Origin: Pseudalkalibacillus berkeleyi
Lineage (GTDB): Bacteria > Bacillota > Bacilli > Bacillales > Fictibacillaceae
NCBI RefSeq assembly: GCF_021608225.1
Contig: NZ_JAKIJS010000001.1
Location: forward strand, 62,001-126,000
DNA: 64,000 nucleotides
Direction of reading: 5' to 3'
The notes under the pieces were generated by a model, which had not been told where the DNA came from, searched no databases, and worked only from the letters and a program-made list of their open reading frames with translations. This document shows positions 46,472 through 63,236 of the stretch, piece by piece; positions within the stretch are counted from its first letter, which is position 1, and every line of letters starts with the position of its first letter. Made by a program: the position numbers and the translations under genes.

Positions 46472-48214
46472 ATGAATAGTTTAGTTTTGGCGATAGTTGG
46501 AATTACCATATTTTTGTTAGGATATCGATTTTATTCGAAATATATAGCAGACCGTATATTCCGTTTGGACCCGAATTACGTCACACCAGCTCATAAATAT
46601 AAGGATGGGGTAGACTTTGTTCCTACAAACCGATTTGTATTATGGGGCCATCACTATAGTTCAGTAGCCGGGGCAGCTCCGATTATTGGACCAGCCATTG
46701 CAGTTTATTGGGGTTGGCTCCCTGCCGTCTTGTGGGTGATTCTAGGCACAGTATTCGCAGCTGGTGTTCACGACTTCGGAACACTCGTACTTTCTGTCAG
46801 AAATAAAGGTCAATCCGTAGGTACACTAGCAAATAAGCTAATAGGAAAGCGCGCGAAGTTATTGTTCTTATTCATCATTCTCATCCTTGTGTTAATGGTT
46901 AACGCTGTGTTTGCATGGGCAATTGCGAATCTTTTCGTGACATTCCCAGCTTCGGTATTATCTATTTTCATACAAATTCCATTAGCGATTTGGATTGGTT
47001 ATTCGGTCTATAAGAAGAAAGGGAGTATGCTCATCCCTTCCATCTTGGCATTGGCAGTTATGTATGGAACGGCAGTACTGGCTTCTAATGTTCCAGCACT
47101 TCAAATCGATTTAGTCAGTTGGTTCGGAGGTAAAGATGCAACTGTCATGTTTGGCTTAAACGGTGTATCAATGGCTTTCCTTGTATGGATCGTCGTGTTG
47201 ATGGTTTATGTTTATATTGCATCAACGTTGCCAGTATGGAAGTTATTACAGCCGAGGGATTATATTAATTCTCATCAATTAGTGATTGGATTATTGATTC
47301 TTTATGCAGGTGTATTATTTGCGCGTCCTACGATTACAGCACCAGCAACAAATCCAGATGCTTCTATGTCAGTGTTCCCATTGTTGTTCATTACAATTGC
47401 TTGTGGTGCGATATCAGGCTTCCACGGACTCGTTTCTTCAGGAACATCATCTAAGCAACTTGATAAAGAAACGGATGCACGTTTTGTCGGTTATGCCGGT
47501 GCTGTAGGTGAAGGTATGCTTGCACTACTTGCCATTATTGCGGTAACGACTTTATTCTCTTCAGGAGCAGATTTTAAAGCCGCTTATAGTAGCTTTGCTG
47601 CAGCAAGTAGTGGTGGATTAGGAAACTTTATTGAGGGTGCTGCGATTCTCGCTTCAGGCATTGGCATCCCAGCTAATATTGCGGCAACGATTGTAGCTGT
47701 CATTGTCATCAGCTTTGCTGCAACTTCCCTTGATACGTCCGTTCGATTGATGCGCTATATCATTGCAGAGCTTGGTACAGAATATAAAATTCCAGCACTA
47801 ACGAAAGCGCATGTCGCAACAACGATCGCTGTTGGTACAAGCGCTATGCTTGTATTGCTACCTGAAGGACCAAATGGTTTTGGTTCTGGTGGATACCTAT
47901 TATGGCCGTTGTTCGGGACTTCCAATCAGCTGCTTGCAGGCATCAGCTTGTTGCTCATATCCATTTGGCTCAAACAGCAAGGAAGGAATTTCATGCCTAC
48001 CTTTATTCCGATGGTCTTCCTTTTGATTATGACGATTTGGGCGATGACGAAGCAGGTTGTATTTGATTGGTCAGGACTCGGTGACACCGACGCCAATCTA
48101 CTACTCTTTGTTTTCGGAGCGGCAATACTCGGATTTGCAATCTGGATTATCTTAGAGGCGTTAACGATATTAACGAAAAAACAATCGCCATCAGACATGG
48201 ACAAGTCCGCATAA
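46472..48214 (+). CDS. cstA: Carbon starvation protein CstA
   Basis: 580 residues with about sixteen hydrophobic helices. CstA motifs: PTNRFVLWGHHYSSVAGAAP, PIIGPAIAVYWGWLPA, GVHDFGTLVLSVRNKGQSVG, SGFHGLVSSGTSSKQL, GEGMLALLAI and a LLWPLFGTSNQLLAG segment. The family imports peptides or pyruvate at carbon starvation (CstA and BtsT in enterics). GGAAGGGG precedes the ATG. A strong hairpin follows its stop, then the (seleno)protein gene. Confidence 0.93.
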   Translation: MNSLVLAIVGITIFLLGYRFYSKYIADRIFRLDPNYVTPAHKYKDGVDFVPTNRFVLWGHHYSSVAGAAPIIGPAIAVYWGWLPAVLWVILGTVFAAGVHDFGTLVLSVRNKGQSVGTLANKLIGKRAKLLFLFIILILVLMVNAVFAWAIANLFVTFPASVLSIFIQIPLAIWIGYSVYKKKGSMLIPSILALAVMYGTAVLASNVPALQIDLVSWFGGKDATVMFGLNGVSMAFLVWIVVLMVYVYIASTLPVWKLLQPRDYINSHQLVIGLLILYAGVLFARPTITAPATNPDASMSVFPLLFITIACGAISGFHGLVSSGTSSKQLDKETDARFVGYAGAVGEGMLALLAIIAVTTLFSSGADFKAAYSSFAAASSGGLGNFIEGAAILASGIGIPANIAATIVAVIVISFAATSLDTSVRLMRYIIAELGTEYKIPALTKAHVATTIAVGTSAMLVLLPEGPNGFGSGGYLLWPLFGTSNQLLAGISLLLISIWLKQQGRNFMPTFIPMVFLLIMTIWAMTKQVVFDWSGLGDTDANLLLFVFGAAILGFAIWIILEALTILTKKQSPSDMDKSA

Positions 48215-48220
48215 CAATTT

Positions 48221-48250
48221 GAGAAGGTCGGGTTCCGGCCTTCTTTTTTC
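48221..48250 (+). terminator. Terminator between cstA and the (seleno)protein cluster
   Basis: AGAAGGTCGG (48222-48231) pairs with CCGGCCTTCT (48235-48244) with a three-base loop, then TTTTTC. Only 31 bases separate it from the next start codon, leaving no room for a normal promoter, so downstream genes depend on readthrough. Confidence 0.8.
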
Positions 48251-48280
48251 CAAACAACCACAACTAAGGGAGGTGCCGTC

Positions 48281-48679
48281 ATGAAGGAAGAGTTACTCAT
48301 AATTCGTGTATGGCCTGAAGTCGGCGGCGGCTGATGTGGGGGTGTTTCTGGTGACGGGTTCATCAGTATGGATGATCAATTTAAGGATGATTTAGCTGAA
48401 ATGAGAGAAACAGGAGAAGTTTATCGAAACATAGTAGAACAGTTTGGAGATCAGATTGAAGTTATTTTCGTTGATCCAAGAAACTCCATCTCTATTATGG
48501 ATTATATGTTCCGTCAGTTAAGAAAAAGGAAAATCAATGTATGGACGATGTTGAAAAATACCTTTGTCGGATCGAGAAGAGGGGCCATTTTTCTTAATGG
48601 TCACTGGTTGAATTCGAATGCTAGGTCTAATGAAGATATTTATTTGAATATCAGTGAGGAATTAGGTGTTCATAAATGA
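48281..48679 (+). CDS. Candidate selenoprotein with UGA-Cys motif, ArsD/thioredoxin-like fold
   Basis: AAGGGAGGTG lies seven bases before ATG 48281. The frame codes MKEELLIIRVWPEVGGG, then TGA (48332-48334), then CGGVSGDGF and about 105 more residues to 48,679 with no other stop. Without recoding the product would be 17 residues; the later ATG 48368 has no good ribosome site. I read TGA as selenocysteine in a Sec-Cys (Cys-Cys in relatives) motif after a first beta strand. The hydrophobic strands IEVIFVDP and GAIFLNG suggest a thioredoxin-like fold like ArsD. I recall an NCBI family name 'CC/Se motif family (seleno)protein' for such proteins, unchecked. A nonsense mutation is the alternative. 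Confidence 0.72.
48332..48366 (+). promoter_or_regulatory. In-frame UGA and bSECIS-like hairpin
   Basis: After the TGA at 48332-48334, CTGGTG (48348-48353) pairs with CATCAG (48361-48366) round a seven-base loop ACGGGTT. The loop starts about 20 bases after the UGA, inside the 16-37 base range for bacterial SECIS elements. A competing pairing CTGATG (48331-48336) with CATCAG spans the UGA itself. The stem is short, so the match is suggestive only. Confidence 0.5.
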
Positions 48680-48942
48680 GTGAAACAAAGTGGTCGATCA
48701 AAAAGCTGATTGGACTTTACGATGAAATATTGAGTCATCCACACAAACATGAAATTAAGCGAGAGCTGAGAGATGAAGACGATCTGTTCTTACTCTTATG
48801 TGTTTCAGAGCTATTAGGCATTCCGAACCCCGTTTCGTATTATACACTGGAAATCTATCCAGTGATTGTGGAGCGATTCCATGAATGGCATTTACGAATG
48901 GGAATGGAAAAATCACCATTAGAAGGCATAAGGTGTTGTTAG
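48676..48942 (+). CDS. Small protein ending in Arg-Cys-Cys (cory-CC-star type)
   Basis: 88 residues, ATG overlapping the upstream stop (ATGA). Mostly helical and charged, with one inner Cys (LLLCVSELLGIPNP) and a C-terminus PLEGIRCC directly before the stop. I recall the database name 'cory-CC-star protein' for this type. The terminal RCC is shared with enteric YbdD/YjiX, the small proteins encoded beside cstA and btsT. The Cys pair may bind a metal or form a thiol relay with the Sec/Cys protein. Function unknown. Confidence 0.75.
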   Translation: MSETKWSIKKLIGLYDEILSHPHKHEIKRELRDEDDLFLLLCVSELLGIPNPVSYYTLEIYPVIVERFHEWHLRMGMEKSPLEGIRCC

Positions 48943-48960: not shown

Positions 48961-49911
48961 ATGGTGAAGAAGATTTTGAACAAAAGCATTGTATTTTTCG
49001 GTGGTAAGGGTGGCGTCGGAAAGTCAACGTCAGCTTCGGCCTTTGCATTAACACTCGCTAGACAAGGCAAGCGAACGTTGCTCGTTTCGACGGACCCTGC
49101 TCATAATGTAGGGGACATCTTTCAGAAACAACTTTCTGGGAAACCTAAGCGATTAACAGACAATTTGTCGGCGATTGAAATTAATCCTGATGAAGAAACG
49201 AAACGATATTTAAAAGGGGTAAAAGAAAATCTGAAAGGGCTTGTGAAATCGAAAATGATTGAAGAGGTCCATCGTCAAATTGACCTTGCTGCAGGATCTC
49301 CAGGTGCGGATGAAGCCGCTCTGTTTGATCGTCTCGTTTCAATTATTCTGGATGAGAAAGAGTCCTTCGATACAATCGTGTTTGATACTGCACCGACAGG
49401 TCATACGATTCGACTTCTCACGTTACCAGAGCTCATGGGTGCATGGATAGATGGCATGTTAAAGCGTAGGGAGAGCATGAATGAGAATTACTCTTCGTGG
49501 ATGGGGGATGGTGAGCCTGTTGAGGATCCCATTTACGATATTCTCCATAAGAGGAAAGAACGTTTCGCTTCAGTTAGGAACGTGTTACTAGACGACAAAC
49601 AAACAGAATATGTTTTTGTTTTGAATCCAGAGCGATTGCCTATCGTTGAAACAGAGAAAGCAGTGCAAACTTTACAAAAGCATGAAATTGATGTGAGGAC
49701 GTTAATCGTAAATAAGCTTCTACCTAAAGAGGATACGAGTACCTTTTTCCAAAAACGGATTGAACAGGAGAAGCATTATTTAGAATGGATCAACCAATCG
49801 TTTGATCAAGAGAAAATTTATATTCCATTGCTAGATGGTGACGTTTCATCCTTAGAGGCTTTACATCAAGTGAGCGAGAGGATGGAGGAGGAGCTTTTCA
49901 TCGGGCAATGA
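48961..49911 (+). CDS. ArsA/GET3-type ATPase without cysteines
   Basis: 316 residues with a deviant Walker A (FFGGKGGVGKSTSASAF), switch I STDPAHN and switch II FDTAPTGHTIRLL, the ArsA/Get3 set. Helical insert around MIEEVHRQIDLAAGSPGADE. The protein contains no Cys at all, so the As(III) site of ArsA and the zinc CxxC of Get3 are absent; any metal or thiol chemistry must come from its two Cys-bearing neighbours. It closes the three-gene cluster and is followed by a terminator. Confidence 0.88.
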   Translation: MVKKILNKSIVFFGGKGGVGKSTSASAFALTLARQGKRTLLVSTDPAHNVGDIFQKQLSGKPKRLTDNLSAIEINPDEETKRYLKGVKENLKGLVKSKMIEEVHRQIDLAAGSPGADEAALFDRLVSIILDEKESFDTIVFDTAPTGHTIRLLTLPELMGAWIDGMLKRRESMNENYSSWMGDGEPVEDPIYDILHKRKERFASVRNVLLDDKQTEYVFVLNPERLPIVETEKAVQTLQKHEIDVRTLIVNKLLPKEDTSTFFQKRIEQEKHYLEWINQSFDQEKIYIPLLDGDVSSLEALHQVSERMEEELFIGQ

Positions 49912-61904: not shown

Positions 61905-63236
61905 TTGATATACAATGTCGAAATGGAAACGATGGAAATCAGTCAAAAAGAGCAGTTACAGTTAGAACGTTTAAAGAAGACAGCAGAAACGGTTTATGAG
62001 AGGGTTCCTTTTTACAAAAAGAAGTTTGAAGATTCAAACATTACACCCGATAAAATCAGAAAAATTGAGGACTTGAGAAAGTTGCCCTTCACTGTAAAAC
62101 AAGACTTACGTGATCATTATCCGTTCGGGTTATTTGCGGTAGATCAGAAGGAAGTTGTTCGATTACATGCATCTTCTGGCACGAGTGGTAAACCAACCGT
62201 CGTCGGTTATACGAAAAATGACATTAACCTATTCAGTGAGGTTGTGGCGAGATCGATTGCAGCAGCCGGAGGTATTCCAGGTAACGTCCTTCACAATGCT
62301 TACGGATATGGTCTTTTTACAGGTGGGCTAGGGTTGCACTATGGATCAGAGCAGCTTGGTATGGCAACAGTACCCGTCTCCGGAGGCAATACATCAAGGC
62401 AAATTCTTCTCATCGAAGACTTCAAACCACAAGTCATTTGTGGAACGCCTTCCTACATTTTAAATATTGCTGAAACGATGGAGAAAATGGGGAAGGACCC
62501 AAGAAAAACAAGCTTGAAGTACGGTATTTTCGGTGCAGAACCATGGTCTGAGGAAATGCGACAAACTTTAGAGGAAAAGCTCGACATTAAAGCTGTGGAT
62601 ATATATGGGCTGAGCGAGATCATCGGACCAGGCGTTTCAATTGAATGTCATGAAGCACAAGACGGACTACATATTGCAGACGATCATTTCTATGTTGAAG
62701 TAATCGATCCCGACACACTCCAACCAGTAGCAGATGGTGAGTATGGGGAACTTGTATTCACAAGCTTGACGAAAGAAGCATTCCCGATTATTCGATACCG
62801 AACGGGAGATATCGCGGCAATAAACCGAGAAACGTGTACATGCGGAAGAACTTCTGTCCGGATGACGAGAGTGAAGGGCCGTATAGATGACATGCTCATT
62901 ATTCGTGGGGTGAACGTGTTCCCATCTGAAATTGAGAACTGCTTATTACAATTAGAAGAAATCGTGCCTCACTATCAAATACAACTTAAGAAGAATGGAA
63001 CAATGGATCAGGTAGTATTACAAGTCGAAGTGAGCGACGCCACATACAATCACTGTCTGAAAGACATGAATCATGTAAGCCTCGATGAGCTGAAAGCTAA
63101 GATCCAACAAACGATCAAGTCTAACTGTCTCGTTTCCATTGAAATTGACATAAAAGAACCGAATTCCGTTCCACGCTCAGAAGGAAAAGCAGTTCGTGTA
63201 GTCGACCTTAGAAAAGAAGAAGTGCTTCAGAAGTAA
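61905..63236 (+). CDS. paaK: Phenylacetate-CoA ligase
   Basis: 443 residues of the adenylate-forming family: HASSGTSGKPTVVGYT (ATP loop), YGYGLFTGGLGLHYG, GAEPWSEEMRQ, YGLSEIIGPGV, IRYRTGDI and GRIDDMLIIRGVNVFPSEIE. It makes phenylacetyl-CoA. GGGAGG is seven bases before TTG 61905, the start used here; a longer frame from 61,860 runs through that site. First gene of an aerobic phenylacetate operon continuing with paaA. Confidence 0.93.
   Translation: MIYNVEMETMEISQKEQLQLERLKKTAETVYERVPFYKKKFEDSNITPDKIRKIEDLRKLPFTVKQDLRDHYPFGLFAVDQKEVVRLHASSGTSGKPTVVGYTKNDINLFSEVVARSIAAAGGIPGNVLHNAYGYGLFTGGLGLHYGSEQLGMATVPVSGGNTSRQILLIEDFKPQVICGTPSYILNIAETMEKMGKDPRKTSLKYGIFGAEPWSEEMRQTLEEKLDIKAVDIYGLSEIIGPGVSIECHEAQDGLHIADDHFYVEVIDPDTLQPVADGEYGELVFTSLTKEAFPIIRYRTGDIAAINRETCTCGRTSVRMTRVKGRIDDMLIIRGVNVFPSEIENCLLQLEEIVPHYQIQLKKNGTMDQVVLQVEVSDATYNHCLKDMNHVSLDELKAKIQQTIKSNCLVSIEIDIKEPNSVPRSEGKAVRVVDLRKEEVLQK

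Follow-up and report, generated by a model that had tools for sequence, protein, structure and literature searches.

Comparative sequence evidence for a selenoprotein gene with a predicted thioredoxin-like product in a cstA operon of Pseudalkalibacillus berkeleyi

In the 64,000-nucleotide stretch of the Pseudalkalibacillus berkeleyi genome analysed here (the window; NZ_JAKIJS010000001.1, positions 62,001 to 126,000), a reading frame starting at ATG 48281 meets a TGA already at codon 18 and then continues without a stop. This raises the question of whether the TGA terminates translation or is read as selenocysteine (Sec). An ORF search of positions 48281-48679 with translation table 11 yields only a 103-aa piece starting at ATG 48368. 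A first-pass annotation, made from the letters alone, had favoured Sec, pointing to a good ribosome-binding site, the TGA at codon 18 and about 114 open codons behind it. Reading the sequence confirmed these points: the TGA is followed by TGT and 113 further sense codons (114 open codons) up to a stop TGA at 48677-48679, and the proposed motif Gly-Gly-Gly-UGA-Cys-Gly-Gly is encoded (GGG-U-CGG). The features of the locus are compiled in Table 1.

Table 1. Features of the candidate selenoprotein locus (positions of the window).
Feature	Positions	Strand	Basis and remarks
CstA-family transporter	46472..48214	+	immediately upstream of the selenoprotein gene; Pfam PF02554, E 1e-149; neighbour in 29/30 loci
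GC-rich hairpin with T-run, terminator/attenuator-like	48221..48248	+	between cstA and the selenoprotein gene; -16.4 kcal/mol, z -4.1
Shine-Dalgarno (SD) sequence AAGGGAGGTG	48266..48275	+	5 nt before ATG 48281; read from the sequence
Candidate selenoprotein gene	48281..48679	+	132 codons with Sec as the 18th, ending in TGA; translation with TGA=U and homologue alignment
Putative Sec codon TGA, then Cys TGT	48332..48334	+	21 homologues have TGA; 11 close relatives lacking selA have TGT/TGC
SECIS-like hairpin CTGGTGA-CGGGT-TCATCAG	48348..48366	+	synonymous sites invariant in Sec forms only; one C-G/G-C compensatory pair
cory-CC-star protein, ending ...GIRCC	48676..48942	+	NF041419 scored above cut-off (E 9e-37)
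Single-domain ArsA/Get3-type ATPase, no cysteine	48961..49911	+	TIGR00345, E 3e-88; Cys count

Homologues were searched for in genome samples of the genus, the order, the class and the phylum as well as in one public plasmid; these samples are draws from larger groups, and the counts given here are not a census. The family was found in 28 of the 397 genomes of the order sample and, across all searches, in Bacilli only, with no reliable member outside this class. TGA-Cys occupies the same position in 21 intact homologues, with protein identities as low as roughly 30-40%. Cys-Cys is encoded there in 11 close relatives without selA and in several distant relatives, too. Both kinds of homologue align at positions 18-19, a pattern which the first-pass annotation had named as support for its proposal. 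The recurrence of frame, TGA and motif in 21 homologues, with TGA alternating with TGT/TGC, is more than expected by chance. The Cys forms of Bacillaceae possess a third cysteine (CCGGxC, i.e. CC-x3-C), which is missing from the Sec forms (UC with Ser) and from the distant Cys forms. The tree of these sequences fits a history in which the operonic clade had Sec first and changed to Cys once, in a family that lacks selA and whose Cys forms are those with the third cysteine.

If the UGA were an ordinary stop, the true gene would start at ATG 48368 and encode 103 aa. This is the default table-11 reading, and one relative has been annotated accordingly: RefSeq entry WP_233812010.1 of Cytobacillus spongiae (L109 4010-4297), named 'hypothetical protein' and flanked by CstA and cory-CC-star in RefSeq, begins downstream of its own UGA. 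The wrong start anticipated for gene callers thus has a public counterpart, such genes being truncated by gene finders because a selenocysteine codon resembles a stop. However, the 17 codons upstream of the TGA are conserved at protein level with mostly synonymous changes, SD-like sequences precede the homologous upstream starts, the frame is open from end to end in the Cys-form relatives, and TGA tracks selA across genomes (see below). Upstream conservation and Cys homologues thereby rule against a stop with a downstream start, which we regard as extremely improbable. A genome-wide recoding of TGA was discarded as well, since TGA ends genes here, including that at 48281-48679. Judged from these comparisons, 48281-48679 almost certainly encodes a real selenoprotein.

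The genome of the strain (3.5 Mb, 99.97% complete, close to Rossellomorea) encodes SelA (E 5e-167), SelB and a tRNA-Sec with UCA anticodon within about 10 kb. SelD is encoded in the same stretch on the minus strand (L024), so that a search for selA, selB, selC and selD, as recommended at the outset, found all of them present and clustered. The selD gene contains an in-frame TGA itself (read GGUGCKIG) and, as far as its sequence tells, is a built-in positive control for Sec decoding. We detected selA in 19 of 20 whole genomes carrying a TGA homologue. Within the order sample, where selA has a background of 181 in 397 genomes, it scored above cut-off in 14 of the 15 genomes whose TGA gene is intact, compared to none of 11 Cys-form genomes; tRNA-Sec behaved likewise, except for one additional miss (G065). 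In one assembly with an intact TGA gene (G029, L054 5602-5988), selA, selB and tRNA-Sec were all not found; this gene hardly differs from its counterpart in G030, where selA, selB and tRNA-Sec are present, making a recent loss or an assembly gap likely in G029. Some distant Cys-form genomes do carry selA, indicating that a genome can have the Cys form without having lost Sec. Decayed copies occur in two genomes retaining the Sec machinery (L023/L056 and L074), the signs of decay being a missing UC motif and a TAG within the hairpin; the CC-star and ATPase genes are kept.

The short hairpin noticed in the first pass, with its loop about 20 bases after the UGA, was confirmed and proved to be conserved in TGA forms only. 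Its arms (48348-48354 and 48360-48366) enclose the loop CGGGU (48355-48359), and the gap from UGA to loop is exactly 20 nt. The sequence CUGRUGA-CGGGU-UCAUCAG is nearly fixed in 18 Sec genes, though the proteins differ by up to about 65%. The Gly-Phe-Ile codons within the hairpin are GGG TTC ATC in 18 of 18 Sec genes versus 0 of 11 Cys genes, even though the genomes that were checked use these codons in a minority of cases. At the base of the stem, four sequences show a compensatory change from C-G to G-C (99% of alignment cells paired). Two distant Sec forms (L093/L094) have different stem sequences, with a hairpin at a similar position and a loop beginning with G. Bacterial SECIS elements have been described as having a loop of 3-9 nt, a stem of 4-16 bp, a G in the first two loop positions, a distance of 16-37 nt from the UGA and an energy of at most -7.5 kcal/mol (PMC13188914). 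The hairpin of the window fits this geometry (a 5-nt loop with G as its second base, a 7-bp stem, 20 nt from the UGA). Its energy is -6.8 kcal/mol over 23 nt (z -2.65) and -7.2 kcal/mol over 45 nt, compared to the published limit of -7.5; most relatives reach the limit on 45 nt. A 42-nt stretch prefers another fold, and Rfam gave no match at the hairpin. Folding energies after codon shuffling differ between Sec and Cys genes (mean z -1.5 vs -0.35) and are individually weak; on present sequences it is the fixed codons, not the shuffle energies, that carry the hairpin signal. Modest when taken alone, the hairpin of the window becomes convincing because of the comparative evidence. One Sec-form gene (L076 5203-5703) has a 28-residue insertion right after the SECIS region. 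Together, homologues, Sec machinery and a hairpin restricted to TGA forms support the selenoprotein reading of the first pass, whose redox or metal-binding role is a candidate function.

The operonic setting, likewise part of that reading, is evident from the overlap of the stop with the start of the next gene (ATGA, 48676) and from the gene order. We fetched 30 Bacillales loci with intact or decayed family copies together with their flanks; 29 of them have the order cstA, family gene, cory-CC-star, ArsA/Get3 ATPase (exception G165). Among 12 more distant loci, cstA lies directly upstream in nine, and CC-star plus ArsA were found in only three, six of the nine cstA-linked loci giving no CC-star or ArsA match. 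In the fetched DNA of three distant members and of G165, cstA was not seen. Because cstA stands upstream even where CC-star and ArsA are unmatched, CstA appears as the constant partner, and the selenoprotein very probably acts with it. This constant link to CstA had escaped the first pass. The CC-star protein ends in RCC in all Bacillales loci, and the ATPase lacks cysteine altogether at 26 of the 30 loci, with none conserved. CstA itself has exactly one invariant cysteine (Cys311 in the window; ACGA(I/V)SGFH) in all 18 sequences compared, common to E. coli CstA and BtsT. In G034 (L073 5764-6435) the selenoprotein frame continues without a stop into cory-CC-star, possibly a natural fusion, although an SD and an ATG are still present within it.

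Between cstA and the following three genes most relatives have a hairpin, often with a T-run, which might serve as attenuator or mRNA-processing signal; a pattern scan did not list a terminator-like hairpin after cstA, but folding does show one. A LytS/LytTR two-component pair is encoded upstream of cstA in two loci examined. The CstA relative BtsT of E. coli is under the control of BtsS/BtsR (PMC5847655). G433 (L113 421-15069) has a selD-selA-tRNA-Sec-selB cluster, a LytS/LytTR pair and the cstA-selenoprotein-CC-star-ArsA operon side by side. Distant Cys-only members are located between a second CstA type and selA in L110, L111 and L112, selD adjoining selA in L110 and L111.

No convincing match to Pfam or NCBIfam was obtained with 27 family members, and none of the 119 selenoprotein families catalogued in 2026 resembles this one (PMC13188914, Table 1). 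The literature within reach, subscription papers being mostly outside it, contained none linking a carbon starvation protein with this selenoprotein. Apparently, the family is undescribed so far. The AlphaFold2 model (b-a-b-a-a-b-b-a, pLDDT 80) has low confidence in the UC loop. Foldseek gave weak matches for the model (best E 0.37); VIA structure matches were mostly thioredoxin-fold rows with Z at most 7.7, a level that is non-diagnostic. The predicted fold is thioredoxin-like, with the Sec-Cys pair in the loop after strand 1.

As the best explanation of the whole, we consider it quite probable that the gene encodes a UGA-decoded, thioredoxin-like selenoprotein serving as selenol/thiol partner of the CstA module. 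The ribosome would read the UGA at codon 18 as selenocysteine by means of SelA, SelB, tRNA-Sec and SelD together with the hairpin whose loop follows 20 nt later. A protein of about 15 kDa would result, probably cytosolic, with the Sec-Cys pair placed where thioredoxins carry CxxC. It would belong to the module formed by the CstA transporter, the CC-star protein and the ArsA-type ATPase, and may keep this module active by reducing thiols or exchanging with them, the candidate targets being the C-terminal Cys-Cys of CC-star and/or Cys311 of CstA. Sequence evidence establishes coding through the UGA, the exchange of Sec and Cys, the Sec machinery, the hairpin and the operon; the fold is predicted, and we infer the partner contacts and the redox chemistry. 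Thiol/selenol redox chemistry seems somewhat favoured over metal transfer.

Metal handling is the main rival. By analogy with the transfer of As(III) from ArsD to ArsA, the protein might act as a metallochaperone, binding a soft metal(loid) by its Sec-Cys or Cys-Cys pair and passing it to the ATPase or to the CC tail. The vicinal UC or CC pair and an ArsA-family ATPase as neighbour would suit such a role, and ArsD, too, is a small protein with vicinal cysteines whose gene lies beside that of an ArsA-family ATPase. The cysteine spacing of ArsD is CC-x4-C, to which the CCGGxC of the Bacillaceae Cys forms comes close. Yet this third cysteine is restricted to those forms, no arsR or arsB was seen adjoining the gene, some CstA-linked members have no ATPase match, and the ArsD Pfam model matched none of the 27 members up to E 1. 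Membership in ArsD was rejected because of the sequence, the different spacing of cysteines and an ATPase free of them; the absence of ArsD from the VIA rows carries no information. Since the ATPase lacks cysteine, an ArsD-like metal(loid) transfer is weakened; we regard the metallochaperone as unlikely. The same lack of conserved metal-binding cysteines would agree with a role in assembly, as would the assignment of the ATPase to the GET3/ArsA/TRC40 subfamily and the continuous frame of selenoprotein and CC-star in G034. By analogy with Get3, the selenoprotein and CC-star might then form a redox-sensitive chaperone or adaptor for the membrane assembly of CstA rather than take part in its transport cycle. 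Distant CstA-linked members without an ATPase match argue against this, and we judge it quite improbable.

A selenol/thiol partner of CstA would link selenium to pyruvate and carbon-starvation transport in a way that is testable in a Bacillus relative. The locus adds an apparently unlisted selenoprotein family truncated by annotation pipelines, and natural Sec, Cys and decayed versions of one operon offer a comparison of selenium-dependent and Cys forms.

Among known selenoproteins, SelW/Rdx-like and other thioredoxin-fold members resemble the protein in the predicted thioredoxin-like topology and in Sec being located in the loop that follows strand 1. VIA ranked SelW-related structures among its best matches (Z 6.8-7.4, a non-diagnostic level), but the motif is CxxU there and adjacent U-C here, and there is no sequence match. 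The KCU-star/DUF466 proteins (YbdD/YjiX relatives; NF033934, PF04328) are small and have adjacent Cys and Sec, too, and the E. coli YbdD and YjiX genes adjoin those of CstA and BtsT. Pyruvate uptake by E. coli CstA requires YbdD (PMC5847655), and Epsilonproteobacteria YbdD relatives end in Cys-Sec (PMC4607533). In these proteins, however, Sec is found at the C-terminal end, and they form a separate family, resembling the neighbour CC-star in its tail and not the selenoprotein. RCC is likewise the C-terminus of E. coli YbdD and YjiX; hhalign aligned just the 7-residue tail, so that only the tail motif is common to CC-star and YbdD, and homology of the two was rejected. It is a tentative and rather doubtful generalisation that CstA-type pyruvate/peptide transporters in general need a vicinal thiol/selenol partner that acts on the single cysteine invariant among them, and that selenium was recruited to this task twice, in the thioredoxin-like UC protein of Bacilli and in the C-terminal Cys-Sec of the KCU-star (YbdD-like) proteins of Epsilonproteobacteria.

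The closest counterpart are the CstA-CstX-ArsA operons described by Castillo and Saier in 2010, comprising cstA, cstX of about 90 aa and a single-domain ArsA homologue of about 300 aa without arsR, for which it was proposed that ArsA energises CstA through CstX (PMC2963123). By size and place, the CC-star gene would correspond to cstX. The available text of that paper reports no selenoprotein or thioredoxin-like component for these operons, and, measured against it, the selenoprotein is a missed component and supplies the module with a missing part.
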